Source: a virus
DNA: 34,177 nt
IMG/VR virus record: IMGVR_UViG_3300032213_003085
Location: 1 to 34,177 of that record
Strand: one strand, 5' to 3'
The first letter of the stretch is position 1. Each line of letters opens with the position of its first letter. Below are positions 1 to 34,177 of this stretch, in pieces. Below the pieces are notes generated by a model. That model was not told where the DNA came from, searched no databases, and saw only the letters and a program-made list of their open reading frames with translations. A program made the position numbers and the translations under genes.

Positions 1-13
1 AGCAAAAGCCACC
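1..13. repeat. 13-nt terminal direct repeat, left copy (cos candidate)
   Basis: The first 13 bases, AGCAAAAGCCACC, are identical to the last 13 bases of the window. The right copy lies 135 bp upstream of the small-terminase start, where lambda-type phages carry cosN. The length is close to the 12-nt lambda overhang. A circular-assembly overlap would look the same. Confidence 0.6.
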
Positions 14-74
14 CGCAGGGGCTTGGCCGTCAAAAAGATTCCTTAGCCCCCTTGGCGGTCAATGCCGAAAAACC

Positions 75-86
75 TTGATAAATCAA
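75..86. promoter_or_regulatory. TTGATAAATCAA near-palindrome, copy 1
   Basis: Two 5-bp arms, TTGAT and ATCAA, flank a central AA. It is one of five exact 12-mers within 2.3 kb and is followed by CG. A dimeric DNA-binding protein could bind it; the ribbon-helix-helix protein at 1946-2176 is the nearest candidate. Confidence 0.6.
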
Positions 87-6769: not shown

Positions 6770-7513
6770 TTAGGTATTCGGGCCACCATCTGGCCGTGCC
6801 ATCACAGAGGCGTTATGCTGAGAATGGAAGAGGTCGCTCTCGAGTTCGCGCTTGATGCGTTCCACGGCGGTCGCGTAGTGGCCGGGATCGCGTTCGACTC
6901 CCACGAAGCTCCGCCCCGTGCGGATGCAGGCGATTCCGGTGGTGCCGCTTCCCATGTAGGGATCGAAGACGGTCGCGCCGCTTGGCACTTTCATTGCGTC
7001 CATCGTCCACACCATCGCCAGCACTGGCTTTTGCGTCGGATGGTCGTTGCCGTCGCGCCTCGGCATCGTCTTCATGCGGGCGGCGAAGTTTCGAGATGTC
7101 CAGCAGAGTTCTGCATCGGCAAGGCTGAATCCCGTTTCGGCTTCTGGCTTGCGCCAGATCAGCCACCCGCCACTTGCAGGGAAGCAGTCCGCGAAGTAGT
7201 TCCCTCCCCACACGGCCACCAGATCGGCGAGCGTTGGCAGTTTCCGCAGCGTCTCAGCGGCGGGGCGTTGCTTGTCCCATTCGCTTTCCGGCCACGCTCC
7301 ATTGTCTCGGATAGAGCTGTGCGCCTTTGCTTTGTCCGCCTCTATCCCATACGGTGGGTCAGTCACCACGGCGTCGCATGGGATAGCTGGCAGCGTCTCC
7401 CAGTCCCCGAGATACAGCGTCACCCGGCCACACGGCGAGGCATAACAAGGCACGCCAGGACAACCGCCATGAGCGGCGGAGTTTATTTTAGAATCGGAGT
7501 CGGTTGCGCTCAT
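6770..7513 (-). CDS. DNA N6-adenine / N4-cytosine methyltransferase, 247 aa
   Basis: The catalytic motif TDPPYG is at residues 51-56. The SAM-binding motif DPYMGSGTT is at 184-192, preceded by DHPTQKP at 157-163. This order, catalytic motif before SAM motif, is that of beta-class N4/N6 methyltransferases. DPPY favours adenine methylation. The short length and absence of a partner endonuclease fit an orphan phage methylase used against host restriction or for regulation. Its start overlaps the upstream stop as ATGA. The target sequence cannot be read from the protein. Confidence 0.85.
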   Translation of the reverse strand: MSATDSDSKINSAAHGGCPGVPCYASPCGRVTLYLGDWETLPAIPCDAVVTDPPYGIEADKAKAHSSIRDNGAWPESEWDKQRPAAETLRKLPTLADLVAVWGGNYFADCFPASGGWLIWRKPEAETGFSLADAELCWTSRNFAARMKTMPRRDGNDHPTQKPVLAMVWTMDAMKVPSGATVFDPYMGSGTTGIACIRTGRSFVGVERDPGHYATAVERIKRELESDLFHSQHNASVMARPDGGPNT

Positions 7514-8562: not shown

Positions 8563-10011
8563 TCACTCGATGGTGGGAGATTCTTTTGGTTCGTTCCAAA
8601 TCTCTTCCAGTTCTGCGAGCGTGCTGCATGTAGGGCAGCCGTCGAGAACCCATTTCAAAAAGGTAGCAATTGCATGAGATTCCCAGCATGTGAACAATCG
8701 GCAATCAAGCACTTCATTCATGGGTTTGGATTTTTCTTCATCTTCCCAAAACAAAGCAGGAAGGTCTAAATAATCACTTGCATCAAGCTGGACATGAGGC
8801 GCCATTTTCACCAAATTTATCGCTCGCTCGATCTTGTCGCGGCTTACGAGGATCATGCTGCCGGAATCATGGCGCACATGGCGTTCTTCGGGCGGGGCCT
8901 CGGGTTTGGGCTCATCGGGCATCCATTCATCGGCGGCGACTGTGGCCACTTCGTCATCGTCTTTCGCCACTGGCACAGCTGAGGCAAACGCAAGGAAACG
9001 CGGCATGTCGTGCTCGGCTTTGGCTCGCTCGCCTTCCAAACACAGATCCTTGCGCACCATGACCGACGGCTCATCGTTCGGGCCCCAGGGCAAGACATCG
9101 CCGAGAAGATCATGAGATGCGGCCACTTGACCCCAAGTTAGCGTCCCGTCGGCATACTCAGGCAAAAGCAAATCAACCGGCACCGTGGCAGATGCTTCCA
9201 CATACACGTAATCCTTGCAGTTTTTCATGGCAATCACATCCTCATACGAATTGACCACGATACGCAACACAGGCGCTTTATTCCAAACCGCCTGCCACTT
9301 TTTCTGAACTTTCGGACGATTGCTTTCCCATTGCAGCTTCGCCTTGCGGGGGCCTTCAATTTCCGTCTGAATGATTTGCTTCGCTTGCCGCGGATTGAGC
9401 GGCTCGGACTGCATGCTAGGGAAAAGCACCAGCTGCGCCGCCTGGCAAAACGATTCAGGGTCGGACACATGACCCAGCACAAGCAAGGTTTCCTTTTTCA
9501 CCGCACCGGTCCGCACCAACTTGCGACTGGGCATGTCGAGATCATTCAAACGCAGCATCGCTTGCACGTAGTCGAGAGGTCGACCAATTCGTTTTGCGAC
9601 CGATGCCATGCCGACATCACAAACGCGCATCCATGCGTCGAGGCCTTCCGCCTCTTCCATGGGATTGAGCGGCTTACGCTCGAAATTCTCGATGAAGACA
9701 ATTGCCATCGCTTCGTCATCCGTGCAACCGTGTCGGATCAAACAAGGAACCGTTTCCATCGCCAGCCAGCTGGCCGCATGGGCGCGTCGATGCCCCGCAA
9801 GGATCTCGTAAACCTCCTCGGCTTCGTCATCCGTGCGTCGAACCGTGATCGGCTGAATAATGCCGCTTTGCTCGATCGACGACTTCAGCTCTTCCATGTC
9901 AGGGCCGTTATCGATCGTGCGATTGTCCGGATGCGCACGCAGCGCGGCCAGTGGCAGATAGGCGAACTCCAGACGATGCTGGAACATTTCAATTTCATTG
10001 CTCGTAGTCAT
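8563..10011 (-). CDS. ParB/Spo0J-family protein, 482 aa
   Basis: Residues 15-120 are a ParB N-terminal domain: ILAGHRRAHAA holds the GHRR motif at 73-76, and ENFERKPLNPMEEA at 108-121 matches the ENxxR segment. These motifs bind CTP in chromosomal ParB. A helix-turn-helix-like segment follows at about 134-155. The C-terminal 300 residues are not recognised. At 482 aa it is longer than typical ParB. No ParA-type ATPase was found, so partition is uncertain. Lone phage ParB-like proteins may also be regulators or nucleases. The start overlaps the upstream stop as ATGA. A PAPS-reductase-like gene lies in the same operon, recalling the IbrA/IbrB pairing. Confidence 0.75.
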   Translation of the reverse strand: MTTSNEIEMFQHRLEFAYLPLAALRAHPDNRTIDNGPDMEELKSSIEQSGIIQPITVRRTDDEAEEVYEILAGHRRAHAASWLAMETVPCLIRHGCTDDEAMAIVFIENFERKPLNPMEEAEGLDAWMRVCDVGMASVAKRIGRPLDYVQAMLRLNDLDMPSRKLVRTGAVKKETLLVLGHVSDPESFCQAAQLVLFPSMQSEPLNPRQAKQIIQTEIEGPRKAKLQWESNRPKVQKKWQAVWNKAPVLRIVVNSYEDVIAMKNCKDYVYVEASATVPVDLLLPEYADGTLTWGQVAASHDLLGDVLPWGPNDEPSVMVRKDLCLEGERAKAEHDMPRFLAFASAVPVAKDDDEVATVAADEWMPDEPKPEAPPEERHVRHDSGSMILVSRDKIERAINLVKMAPHVQLDASDYLDLPALFWEDEEKSKPMNEVLDCRLFTCWESHAIATFLKWVLDGCPTCSTLAELEEIWNEPKESPTIE

Positions 10012-28885: not shown

Positions 28886-29707
28886 TTACTGAGGAAGGGA
28901 AACGATCAAGTCTTCGATGCTATCGGCCAGGGCATCGACCAGCCCCACGGGCGCGTTTTCGGCAAACCAGAAATCGCCGTTCATGTGCTGGGCGGACAGA
29001 CCGCGCTTTTCGGCGATGAACGACTTGAATTTCTGATCGACAAACTGCATCCGACGTTCGACAGCGGCTTCTTCTTCGGGGGTCCATGGCTTGCCATACA
29101 CGCCAGCGCCTTTGAGCTCGCCCGTGCGGAAAACCTTGGCGACAATGCCATTGTCTTCCAGTTGCTTGGAGTAGTCGTAGGCCACCATCAGGGTGGAAAT
29201 GCTTCCCAAGATCGCGGTGGGATTGGCGACAATCTTCTGACACCCGGCAATCATCCAATAGGCGGCGCTTGCGGCCATGGTGTCGGTGTAGGCATACGTG
29301 CGTTTTCCAGCCAATGCCAAATCGGTAATTTTTCGCGCCGTGGTATCTACGCCCGGTGTCATACCGCCGCCGCTGTTGACGTCCACGATGACGTTTTTGA
29401 TCATCGGATCATTCGCGATGTTGTCGATCATGCGATCGAGATAATGCAGGTCGCAGCCGTAATACCCGCCATACCCTTTCAAAATGTAGCCGGAAATGGG
29501 CAAGATTGCCGTGGCACCGATGACTTGCACCTGCGGCATGTAAGCATCGACACGATCGCCAGCCGCTGCCACAAGGGCGCAGCCCTCGGGCGAAAAGGTA
29601 AGCGCTGTGGGCAAAACAGCGAGCGGAAGCCCGAAAAATTGATTCGTGAGCATAACGGCAAAAAGATACGCTAGGGGGCTTTTGTCAAAGCCGCCCCAGC
29701 GTGTCAT
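28886..29707 (-). CDS. Prohead protease, S49/SppA-like (lambda gpC-type), 273 aa
   Basis: Contains NDPMIKNVIVDVNSGGGMTP (99-118), the serine nucleophile S147 in TDTMAASAAYW, GSI at 168-170, and the probable general-base lysine K199 in GELKGAG. This is the Ser-Lys dyad of S49 phage proteases such as lambda gpC. It matures the prohead by digesting scaffold and portal-associated proteins. The ATG at 29707 lies 6 bp from the portal gene; an internal ATG at 29653 is also possible. Unlike in lambda, no scaffold frame is nested in its 3' end, and the scaffold candidate lies 5 kb away. Confidence 0.8.
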   Translation of the reverse strand: MTRWGGFDKSPLAYLFAVMLTNQFFGLPLAVLPTALTFSPEGCALVAAAGDRVDAYMPQVQVIGATAILPISGYILKGYGGYYGCDLHYLDRMIDNIANDPMIKNVIVDVNSGGGMTPGVDTTARKITDLALAGKRTYAYTDTMAASAAYWMIAGCQKIVANPTAILGSISTLMVAYDYSKQLEDNGIVAKVFRTGELKGAGVYGKPWTPEEEAAVERRMQFVDQKFKSFIAEKRGLSAQHMNGDFWFAENAPVGLVDALADSIEDLIVSLPQ

Positions 29708-29712
29708 GCGCG

Positions 29713-31200
29713 TTATTTTGTCACCTCGCCCGTTTCATCGATCATCAGGGCTTGTTGCCCCGCCCGAGGCGAGAAGACAAGCGAGTAAGGAACATTGTGC
29801 TCTTTGCATTGCTCCATGTGGAATTTCGTTTCGGCAATCAGCTGCCGTGCCACGTCTTTCCAGTCGTCGCCTTTCTCGCGATGGTAGGCGCTGTGCGTGC
29901 TCAAGCCGCTTGCGACTTCGTCCATCTTCATGCGGCCTTCGCGACCTCGGTCGATCGTGATGTCGCGCAGCGGGACGAAGCTGACTTTCCACCACTCCAC
30001 GCCTTCGGGCGGCAGGGGCAAGCGACCGGCTTTCATTTCCTTGGCGAGGACGTAAACCCACACGCGCCGACCCCATTCTTCGAGCATTTCTTGTCGACGG
30101 CGGATCCAGCGAGAAGCCACTTCCATGACGAAACGCACGCCCGCGGAATTGAGATGCGAAATTTTCCACAGCACTTCGATGGGCAAGCCCAGCCCCACGG
30201 CAATGTCGTTGATGAGGGTTTCCCACAAAACCACTTGCTCGGGCGCGGGGCGGTTGTCGTGGAGAATTTTCAGCGTCTCGCCTGGCGGAAGTTGCGGAAT
30301 CTGCGACCCGCCCCACACTTGCGCCACATCGAACTCTCCAGACGCATTGGGATTCTGTGATTTCACGATGGCACCGGGCATTCCCGCTTGGGATTTCTGC
30401 AAGGCCGCCGTGGCACGCTCGCGGATGGCGGCGAAAAGCGAGGCGTTTTTGATCGCCGATTTCACATTTGCCCAGATCTCGACAATATCTTGCGAGTGGT
30501 TGATGCCATGCGCCAACGGCGGAATGGCTCGACGATTGCCAACGCTATCGAAGCTGCCAAAATAGATGCATCGATCGGCGGGGATGACGGTGGTATCAGT
30601 TTTGTTTTTCGCTACCGAGTAATACGTGTGACGGCCCTCTTCATTGATGAGCACGCCATCATGCCAATCACCGTCGAGTCTTTCTTTTTTCGGCATGCGG
30701 ATTTGATGCGACTCGTAAAATGCGAACATCGCCGCGCCGCTCTTGGACTCGGTGAGCACGGTCAAAAGATCGCCATCGCGCAAGGACTGGCACGTGAGCA
30801 TGTGCTGTGCACTCAGAAAATTGAACTTTCCGGCACGGTCGAAAGTGCTGGCATTTCCCGCCACACGCCAAAAGGCTTTCTCGGCCATTTCCGCCCACTC
30901 GCCTTCCACTTCGCTTTGGGGTCGCTGAGCGCCAACCAGTGTTGCGGCGTTGCGGATGAAGCCTTTTACAAATCCCACGTTCGCGGCCAGCCAGCGAATC
31001 CGACGAATCAACTCTTGGTGAGAAAATGAGTCGAGCTCATCGCGCGTTTCGAGAGTCGGCCAGAAAAGTTGGCCACGATCCAAAGACAAATTCGCGCCGG
31101 AATAGCCACTGTAGGCCTCCGGCGCTTGGATGGTATCGGCAGCCTCTGCCATCGGCGAAGGAGCGGGTGAAGAATTTCGATTGCGTTTGCGTTTGGCCAT
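29713..31200 (-). CDS. Portal protein, lambda family, 495 aa
   Basis: Matches lambda-type (gpB) portals in length and in segments such as LAANVGFVKGFIRNAATLVG, the long central APEQVVLWETLINDIAVGLG, and the following LGLPIEVLW motif. The basic N-terminus (MAKRKRNRNS) is often seen. Portals form the dodecameric DNA channel and the terminase docking site. The gene follows the gpW-like gene by 6 bp and has an AT-rich leader (AATTTTTT) directly before ATG. Confidence 0.85.
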   Translation of the reverse strand: MAKRKRNRNSSPAPSPMAEAADTIQAPEAYSGYSGANLSLDRGQLFWPTLETRDELDSFSHQELIRRIRWLAANVGFVKGFIRNAATLVGAQRPQSEVEGEWAEMAEKAFWRVAGNASTFDRAGKFNFLSAQHMLTCQSLRDGDLLTVLTESKSGAAMFAFYESHQIRMPKKERLDGDWHDGVLINEEGRHTYYSVAKNKTDTTVIPADRCIYFGSFDSVGNRRAIPPLAHGINHSQDIVEIWANVKSAIKNASLFAAIRERATAALQKSQAGMPGAIVKSQNPNASGEFDVAQVWGGSQIPQLPPGETLKILHDNRPAPEQVVLWETLINDIAVGLGLPIEVLWKISHLNSAGVRFVMEVASRWIRRRQEMLEEWGRRVWVYVLAKEMKAGRLPLPPEGVEWWKVSFVPLRDITIDRGREGRMKMDEVASGLSTHSAYHREKGDDWKDVARQLIAETKFHMEQCKEHNVPYSLVFSPRAGQQALMIDETGEVTK

Positions 31201-31510: not shown

Positions 31511-31525
31511 TGTCAAAGTGCCAAA
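31511..31525 (-). repeat. TTTGGCACTTTGACA at the end of the large-terminase gene
   Basis: Holds AAAGTGCCAAA on the plus strand (31515-31525), the 11-mer also found at 34061 and 34119. The terminase stop codon TGA lies inside it, and the motif ends 16 nt before the gpW-like start. Confidence 0.5.
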
Positions 31526-33327
31526 GCTGGGGCGGCAGGGATTTCTTTCGGCGGACCATCAAGCAAGCCGTTTTCTTTGAGCACGGGGGCGTTGATGTCC
31601 CACAGGGCGAGGCCGTATTTCAACACGTCGAAGTAGTCGTTTTTTCCTTTCACATGCCATTTTTGCTCTTCGAAGCCGTATTTGTTGGGTTTGACCTCAC
31701 GGTGCACCGAGGTAATTTCATCAACGAAGTCTTCGGAGATATCCCAAGGCAAGATGATGCGCTGTTTGGCGTAGTCGCGATTTTTGCCATCGCGTTTGAT
31801 GCGGTTGAAAACAAGCTCGTTGGCGTAGGCATCGTCGGACACGTGGTAGGTTAGGCACTCGATGCCCAAGTGTTCGCAGACCGATGTGGTGATCAGGCCA
31901 CGCGCTTGGTGGCGACCTCGACCTTTTACGGGGAAAATGTTGTCGTGGCGAGCGCAGTAGCTGCGGACTTCGTGCGTCCTATTGCCGTCCCCTTCGTCGA
32001 CCAATCCGCATTGCACGGTCACGTCTTCGCTTCCAGTCACGGAAATGGGAGTTTCGATGAGGAAATCAATTTCATCCCAAGTCAGGGCCTCGCCGTAGTC
32101 GATGACGATCATGTCGCCGGCGGAGGTGTAAGCGAGCAATCCCCATTTCATTGTCGCGGCCTGAACGTCAACGATGATCGCCACAAGCACGGGCGGCACG
32201 GGGCAGATGCCGCGACGATGCGATTTTTCGCGCAGGCTCAAAACTTCCTTGTCGCGCAGCTGGCCGTTGGAGCGTTTCATCGGCTCGCCAAGTCGATCCT
32301 GAACGAAGGCGGTAAGTTTGTCGGTGGATTTCTGCGCTTCGATCCATTCCACGGCCAGTTCTCCCCACGTCACGGCGTTGGAATAGAGGTCGGAAATGAG
32401 CATGGACCGTTTGCCAGGAATCGCCTTGGGATTGGTCGCACGCCACTGGCCTTTGAGAAGCATGTCGTATTTGTGACTGTGGTCGATGCCCTTTTTGCAC
32501 ATCTCGCAAGCGTAGTAAGCACCGGCTTTGATGGCATCGAGCTGCGGTTCTTGCGCCAGATCCTCAAACTCTTTGCCTTTGTAAATCACGTTTTTCCACT
32601 CCAGCGGCTGCATGTGGTCGCAGTGGGGGCAGGGCACGAAGTATTTTTCCATGGTGCCGGTCAAGCACTCTTGCCATGTCTGATCGCTTTCGAGCTTGGG
32701 CTTGCTGAATCCGAGAAGTTTGCTGTTGGGCTCTTGCTTCAAGCGCGAGCGCATCGCATCGGCAGAATTGCCTTGATGCTTCACAGGTGGGTGAGCGTCG
32801 AGCTCATCGAGAATCCCGATGCCGAGCATTTTGTTTCTCCACGTTCCTACGGAATAGGCCCCAAGCATGTGAACCAGCATCCCGCGCAGGAAGAAGGTCA
32901 TGTTGCTGAGCGAGTCTTCTTCTTCGCCGATTCGTTCGAGCAAGTTGTTTTGGGTGATCCATGGCTGGAGTCGCGACTTGCTAATTTTCCGAGCTTCTTC
33001 CCGGGAGTCGATGCAATAACCGATGTTCGTAGGCCGGTGCACGATGTGCCAGCAAATCACGATAAGGCAGGTCATGGTGAGCCCGACCTGCGAGGACTTG
33101 CAGACAAACAATTCGCTTTTGCCAGTCGAGCGAAACCAATCCATGATTTCACGCACGTAAGGCGAGTAGTCGGAGCTCCAGCGCTGACCGGCTTTCTTCG
33201 GGTTCTCGGCACCTTTGGGAATGATCAAGGTTCGCTCGGCCCATTGCCAGATGGTTTCTTTCGGTAGCGGACGATAGACCCCGGCAAGGCATCCATCGAT
33301 CCATGCTTTAATCTCGCTCTTTGTCAT
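31513..33327 (-). CDS. Terminase large subunit, GpA family, 604 aa
   Basis: A lambda GpA-type packaging ATPase-nuclease. An atypical Walker A is at 76-84 (CKSSQVGLT). Walker B is ILDELD at 172-177. A CxxC...CxxC zinc-ribbon lies at 233-236 and 274-277 (CPHC, CEMC). The nuclease domain begins with VDVQ (D387), then an acidic DEGDGNR, and ends with the typical KNDYFDVLKYGLALWD. It packages DNA into the prohead and cuts the concatemer. The start overlaps the small subunit by 20 bp. Confidence 0.9.
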   Translation of the reverse strand: MTKSEIKAWIDGCLAGVYRPLPKETIWQWAERTLIIPKGAENPKKAGQRWSSDYSPYVREIMDWFRSTGKSELFVCKSSQVGLTMTCLIVICWHIVHRPTNIGYCIDSREEARKISKSRLQPWITQNNLLERIGEEEDSLSNMTFFLRGMLVHMLGAYSVGTWRNKMLGIGILDELDAHPPVKHQGNSADAMRSRLKQEPNSKLLGFSKPKLESDQTWQECLTGTMEKYFVPCPHCDHMQPLEWKNVIYKGKEFEDLAQEPQLDAIKAGAYYACEMCKKGIDHSHKYDMLLKGQWRATNPKAIPGKRSMLISDLYSNAVTWGELAVEWIEAQKSTDKLTAFVQDRLGEPMKRSNGQLRDKEVLSLREKSHRRGICPVPPVLVAIIVDVQAATMKWGLLAYTSAGDMIVIDYGEALTWDEIDFLIETPISVTGSEDVTVQCGLVDEGDGNRTHEVRSYCARHDNIFPVKGRGRHQARGLITTSVCEHLGIECLTYHVSDDAYANELVFNRIKRDGKNRDYAKQRIILPWDISEDFVDEITSVHREVKPNKYGFEEQKWHVKGKNDYFDVLKYGLALWDINAPVLKENGLLDGPPKEIPAAPALAL

Positions 33328-34042
33328 GGATTTCGGTAAAGACTTCAGTAGTTAGGCCGTGGCAGAAGGTATCGATCAGATCTTGCCACTTGGCTTCGTT
33401 TTCGGATGTCACGGGGATTCCATAGGTTCGGGCCATGGCGGGGAAGATGCCACGGATCGCCGAGTAGATCGACGCATGACGATCGACAAGCTGCGTTTCG
33501 GCGATAATGCGCGGGATCAGTTCGCGGCGGGCGATTTCGTCTTCGCGAGCGACTTTTGCCATGACGCGCACTTGCGTGGTCATGTCGTTCCAGTTGCGCT
33601 GGGCCGCACGAATCCGACCCTCATCACGGGAATCGATGGCGGCCAGGTAGGCTCGATACGCATGCACCTCGGCATTGCGCATCCGTTTTTCCGTGGCGAT
33701 GACCCCCATTTCATCGTCACCCACCTCGACCAGTTCCATGGAAGGCGTGGAATTGCCAGTAATGGCGGGGCTTTCCGCGCCACTCAGATCCAAGGGCAGT
33801 TCGTTTTTCGGAAGCGATGGCGAAACGGGCGCGGCTTTGCTGGCAAAGGTGCCATTTCCCGCCGCAGCGGCGATGATGCTATCGGGAGCACGCTGGGTCA
33901 TGTTCTTTTCCCACCATTCCGCCATGCGCTCGGGGACATCGAGCGGAGCTTTGAGCGAGCCCCACCGCTTTACCGTCCGCAGCCCGACCCCATACCGAGC
34001 GGCATAAATCTCATATTTTTCAAGGTATCCAGAGCGGCGCAT
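33308..34042 (-). CDS. Terminase small subunit, 244 aa
   Basis: Residues 12-30 (YAARYGVGLRTVKRWGSL) are a helix-turn-helix for DNA recognition, as in lambda Nu1-type subunits. A flexible middle follows. The C-terminal helical half (about 120-244) presumably oligomerises and binds GpA. The ATG at 34042 is used; a TTG four codons upstream exists. The gene overlaps the large subunit by 20 bp and lies next to the repeats and the window end, which fits a cos site. Longer than Nu1 (181 aa). Confidence 0.75.
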   Translation of the reverse strand: MRRSGYLEKYEIYAARYGVGLRTVKRWGSLKAPLDVPERMAEWWEKNMTQRAPDSIIAAAAGNGTFASKAAPVSPSLPKNELPLDLSGAESPAITGNSTPSMELVEVGDDEMGVIATEKRMRNAEVHAYRAYLAAIDSRDEGRIRAAQRNWNDMTTQVRVMAKVAREDEIARRELIPRIIAETQLVDRHASIYSAIRGIFPAMARTYGIPVTSENEAKWQDLIDTFCHGLTTEVFTEIHDKERD

Positions 34043-34056
34043 GCTAGGGGGCAAAA

Positions 34057-34063
34057 GTCAAAA
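34057..34063 (-). promoter_or_regulatory. TTTTGAC motif before the small-terminase gene
   Basis: TTTTGACT lies 14 nt before the ATG at 34042 and is followed by TTTTGCCCCCTAGC. The CCCCCTAGC part recurs near the protease start (29669-29677). Confidence 0.4.
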
Positions 34064-34129
34064 GTGCCAAAGGTGCAACAAATCTTGTGGAACAATGCCA
34101 CAAAGCCGCAAAAATGCCAAAGTGCCAAA
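34061..34129. repeat. TGCCAAA repeats, candidate terminase-binding sites
   Basis: AAAGTGCCAAA occurs at 34061-34071 and 34119-34129. TGCCAAA also occurs at 34115-34121, and a variant with an inserted CA (TGCCACAAA) at 34096-34104. The repeats lie where lambda has the R sites bound by the small terminase. Confidence 0.55.
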
Positions 34130-34164
34130 AACTTTTTGCAACCTTTTCACTCTTTTTGGCTGCG

Positions 34165-34177
34165 AGCAAAAGCCACC
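34165..34177. repeat. 13-nt terminal direct repeat, right copy (cosN candidate)
   Basis: AGCAAAAGCCACC, identical to positions 1-13. If the window is linear with cohesive ends, this is the filled-in overhang next to the terminase genes. Confidence 0.6.

Follow-up and report, generated by a model that had tools for sequence, protein, structure and literature searches.

A 13-nt terminal repeat beside the terminase genes very probably marks lambda-type cohesive ends in a phage genome

The stretch analysed here (the window; 34,177 nt) is the entire IMG/VR record IMGVR_UViG_3300032213_003085, so the ends of the window are the ends of the record. It begins and finishes with the same 13 bases and carries its terminase genes next to one of these ends. 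This raises the question of whether the record is a complete genome whose two ends are the halves of a cos site, or whether the repeat arose in some other way.

The terminal repeat and its surroundings

The 13-mer AGCAAAAGCCACC lies at positions 1–13 and 34165–34177, exactly as the initial annotation had noticed, and no further copy exists in the window even if 2 mismatches are allowed. At the base composition of the window, 13 matching terminal bases would occur by chance with a probability of ~1.6e-8. The spacing between this repeat at the record end and the ATG of the small terminase gene, terS, had been given as 123 bp and measures 122 bp (34043–34164). Read from the record end, the genes follow the order terS-terL-portal-protease, which is the order adjoining cos in lambda-like phages:

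33308..34042, minus strand: small terminase subunit (TerS), from its position and a short HTH-like N-terminus (YGVGLRTVKRW)
31513..33327, minus strand: large terminase subunit (TerL), with GpA ATPase and GpA nuclease domains (Pfam, E=1.1e-41 and 1.9e-30)
29713..31200, minus strand: portal protein of the lambda family (domain match)
28886..29707, minus strand: S49 head maturation protease (domain match)

TerS is assigned mainly by position. It gave no Pfam or PHROG match; it is 40% identical to the gene preceding terL in a relative described below (L003), and shares with lambda gpNu1 a weak 18-aa HTH match (E=0.037). Its AlphaFold model is of low confidence (pLDDT 55), too weak for an assignment to the gpNu1 family. 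The phage also encodes a ParB-like protein (8563–10011) and a DNA methyltransferase (6770–7513).

We then joined the two ends in the terminase-first orientation, which gives CCCCTGCG-GGTGGCTTTTGCT-CGCAGCCA. The 13-mer is flanked on both sides, without any gap, by a perfect 5-bp inverted repeat (CTGCG-13-CGCAG; chance ~1e-3) that had been overlooked in the initial annotation. This dyad is an independent support, because the limits of the 13-mer are fixed by the record ends and not by the choice of the analyst. The elements of the putative junction are as follows:

34165..34177, minus strand: cosN, left cohesive end, GGTGGCTTTTGCT in terminase-first orientation, 13 nt (exact terminal repeat of 1–13; filled-in ends of 13 nt also occur at this position in relatives)
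1..13, minus strand: cosN, right cohesive end, the same 13 nt (exact terminal repeat)
34160..34164, no strand: dyad arm CTGCG, flush with the 13-mer (inverted repeat; chance ~1e-3)
14..18, no strand: second dyad arm CGCAG, flush with the 13-mer (inverted repeat)

The bases around the presumed nicks (slash) are CG/GG on the left and T/CG on the right, as in lambda, whose junction reads ACG/GGGCGGCGACCT/CGCG; both of the nick-flanking CG dinucleotides, a pair conserved in lambda-like phages (PMC4669245), are thus present. The locus further resembles the cos of lambda, 21 and N15 in its end-terS-terL order, its GpA-family TerL, its presumed cohesive ends from staggered nicks and the placing of a candidate TerS-site region between nick and terS. 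It differs in the overhang, which has 13 nt here and 12 there, and another sequence (GGTGGCTTTTGCT against GGGCGGCGACCT, as defined in PMC4669245), and in a TerS without family match beyond the weak gpNu1 HTH match.

Ends of related phages

A TerL search of viral contigs returned one relative at 98% identity (L002), one at 49% (L003) and many that are ~27% identical. Further relatives were sought among viral contigs by TerL alignment and by portal, which yielded only L002 and L003 again, and GTDB genomes held only distant prophage terminases. The near-identical L002 stops inside terS, short of the cos site, and scanning the 49% relative (L003/G003) for a dyad and for similarity revealed no cos. 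The initial annotation had suggested a search of related genomes for the same 13-mer, and this check failed: none of the other IMG/VR contigs that we scanned contains the left-end 18-mer GGTGGCTTTTGCTCGCAG, made up of the 13-mer and the 5 bases beside it.

The decisive comparison came from the ~27% group. Its contigs repeatedly finish 640–730 b upstream of terL, at GGTAATTTCGAAC, and over the whole set of loci retrieved we counted 43 distinct left ends at this sequence or close variants of it, upstream of terminase genes. The majority are flush (36 of 43), while five carry one extra T and two have CTTCCGATCT in front; both of these additions match the last bases of the Illumina adapter. For the opposite side, we scanned with the pattern GGGTCCTT-N18-GGTAATTTCGAAC and retrieved 44 stretches, among which 11 stop exactly after the 13-mer and 2 run into the AGATCGGAAGAGC Illumina adapter; the rest read through, as would be expected of permuted or joined copies. 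Three members of the group, G001 (GGTTAATTCGAAC), G021 and G025, have an exact 13-nt repeat at both ends of records of 37356, 38804 and 38903 b, and are apparently complete cos genomes. The relatives thus have the same 13 bases at both ends, with adapter ligated outside, as 13-nt 5' overhangs would give once filled in (PMC5557969). The window carries this same signature, at equal length and in an equal place: it has the short terminal repeat expected of end-repaired cohesive ends, 13 nt long as in the three relatives, and a fixed genome end adjoining terS-terL, where the contigs of the relatives finish at the equivalent place. In four IMG/VR contigs (L014, L196, L215 and L226), the Illumina adapter directly adjoins the phage terminus, which identifies the latter as a physical end of the DNA.

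The likeness between the window and the phages with the GGTAATTTCGAAC cos (G001, G021, G025) thus lies in a 13-nt filled-in repeat beginning with GGT, upstream of terS-terL. In contrast, their TerL is only ~27% identical, they have GGGTCCT ~26 nt before the nick and GAGAC repeats where TTTGGCA stands here, and they lack a flush 5-bp dyad. A literature search for GGTAATTTCGAAC found nothing. A cos with a 13-bp overhang was predicted by PhageTerm in the P2-like Burkholderia phage Mica (PMC7883832); that phage has P2-type structural genes, and the likeness is one of overhang length. Akkermansia phage Moulinsart was considered as a source of a cos sequence and rejected: a stretch of ~100 nt recurs almost unchanged at both ends of its record, which was therefore probably cut at attachment sites and yields no cos.

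Origin of the ends

Short repeats often terminate circular contigs, and the 13-nt repeat could in principle be left over from an assembly overlap, the genome being circular or headful-packaged and its ends arbitrary. We regard this as very improbable: an arbitrary break is not expected to fall just outside terS and flush with a dyad, assemblers do not usually work with a k-mer of 13, and the relatives show breaks at the corresponding position, with adapter joined on and a repeat that is likewise 13 nt long. Even smaller is the likelihood that the ends are real and differently made, either as a very short direct terminal repeat or as 3' overhangs. The polarity is unreadable from the window alone, which leaves room for such ends; however, 3' overhangs are removed by library end repair, leaving no repeat, and known direct terminal repeats start at about a hundred bases (PMC5557969), while a GpA/lambda terminase yields 5' extensions (PMC4669245).

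We are therefore highly confident that the two ends of the window together make up a cos site of the lambda type; that the DNA of this phage is cut there, and with 5' polarity, is what we infer. The record very probably represents a whole phage genome of the 5'-cos type with 13-nt cohesive ends, the polarity of the overhang being deduced from the fill-in (PMC5557969). The proposal of the initial annotation, that the genome is complete and packaged from cos by a GpA-type terminase, now has strong support from the flush dyad, from nick flanks like those of lambda, and from the physical ends and 13-nt filled-in repeats of the distant relatives. The mechanism is known and ordinary; the sequence of the site is new. 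TerS and the GpA-type TerL would nick the concatemer in a staggered manner at CTGCG-GGTGGCTTTTGCT-CGCAG, leaving 13-nt 5' cohesive ends whose annealing would circularise the genome after infection. End repair during library preparation would have filled both overhangs and so placed the 13 bases at both ends of the assembled linear genome.

The record is accordingly usable as a complete genome with defined ends. More generally, filled-in cohesive ends of ~13 nt, sometimes with adapter, occur at the ends of metagenomic phage contigs, and such ends let complete cos genomes be recognised and their overhangs read without sequencing reads. Repeats this short are easily missed, so that complete genomes are taken for linear fragments; PhageTerm works with a threshold of 20 bp when it tells cos phages from DTR phages (PMC5557969).

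Candidate TerS sites and the far end

Between the repeat and terS, the initial annotation had reported three TGCCAAA units and a CA-inserted variant, and we located them at 34065, 34115 and 34123 and, for the variant TGCCACAAA, at 34096–34104. TGCCAAA is common, with 23 copies across the genome, and for some 7-mer to appear three times in 122 bp is only slightly out of the ordinary (seen in 61 of 2000 shuffles and in 31 of 1703 genome windows). A lag test that presupposes no motif revealed an 8-bp periodicity, which was matched by 2 of 600 shuffles. Measured from the end, the units lie at 49, 57, 66, 74 and 107 nt, and a degenerate tandem array of ~8-bp period with one separate copy describes them better:

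34096..34129, minus strand: degenerate tandem array TTTGGCAC/TTTGGCAT/TTTGCGGC/TTTGTGGCA, ~8-bp period, 49–82 nt from the end; candidate TerS-binding, cosB-like (lag-8 test; binding predicted)
34065..34071, minus strand: separate TTTGGCA unit, 107 nt from the end (motif positions)

It is plausible that this array represents putative R-type TerS sites, placed like lambda cosB, on which TerS would probably dock, 49–113 nt inside the left end, and so place the nuclease. Where lambda has CGTTTCC R sites, with cores at 53, 114 (inverted) and 155 nt from the nick, the window has TTTGGCA units of ~8-bp period. We give appreciable weight, somewhat short of even, to the alternative that the array, instead of being a TerS site, serves to control transcription of the packaging operon or reflects compositional noise. 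The abundance of TGCCAAA in the genome and the modest rarity of three 7-mer copies per 122 bp speak for it; the periodicity beyond that of shuffles speaks against it, as does the position, 49–113 nt from the nick, which parallels lambda R3 at 53 and R2 at 114. In the ~27%-TerL relatives, moreover, the corresponding interval is enriched for another short motif, namely GAGAC (54 observed against 11 expected). The array here and GAGAC in the relatives fit lineage-specific TerS sites, a fit that falls short of proving binding. The 11-mer AAAGTGCCAAA does occur a third time near the end of terL, as had been pointed out (31515, besides 34061 and 34119). This copy is meaningless because 20 different 11-mers occur at least three times in the genome and because it overlaps the last terL codons.

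GGGTCCT, the 7-bp heptamer of lambda cosQ, is found in lambda 30 nt before the nick and in most of the ~27%-TerL relatives 26–28 nt before it, whereas none occurs on either strand of the window. In its stead, the window carries at its far end two repeats that follow TTGAC[CG]GCCAAG:

22..33, minus strand: TTGACGGCCAAG, far-end repeat copy 1, possible packaging-termination element (predicted function)
51..62, minus strand: TTGACCGCCAAG, far-end repeat copy 2 (predicted function)

A hairpin sought at the far end was no better than in shuffled sequence. One could imagine, as a tentative and rather doubtful extension, a cos subtype that lacks a GGGTCCT cosQ, in which a TerS of an undescribed family reads a TTTGGCA-type array of ~8-bp period rather than spaced R sites with an IHF-induced bend, and in which the TTGAC[CG]GCCAAG repeats perhaps serve as termination signal.

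GGGTCCT ~26 nt before cosN is conserved in environmental GpA-terminase phages (L036, L084, L212 and others) and in a Variovorax locus. The right end of the cyanophage S-CBS1 record also contains GGGTCCTTCCTG. Finally, five exact TTGATAAATCAA near-palindromes are clustered in the far-end region of the window (75–86, 127–138, 201–212, 869–880 and 2348–2359), and allowing 2 mismatches gives 13 matches where 3.3 would be expected; in appearance they resemble operator or replication sites.
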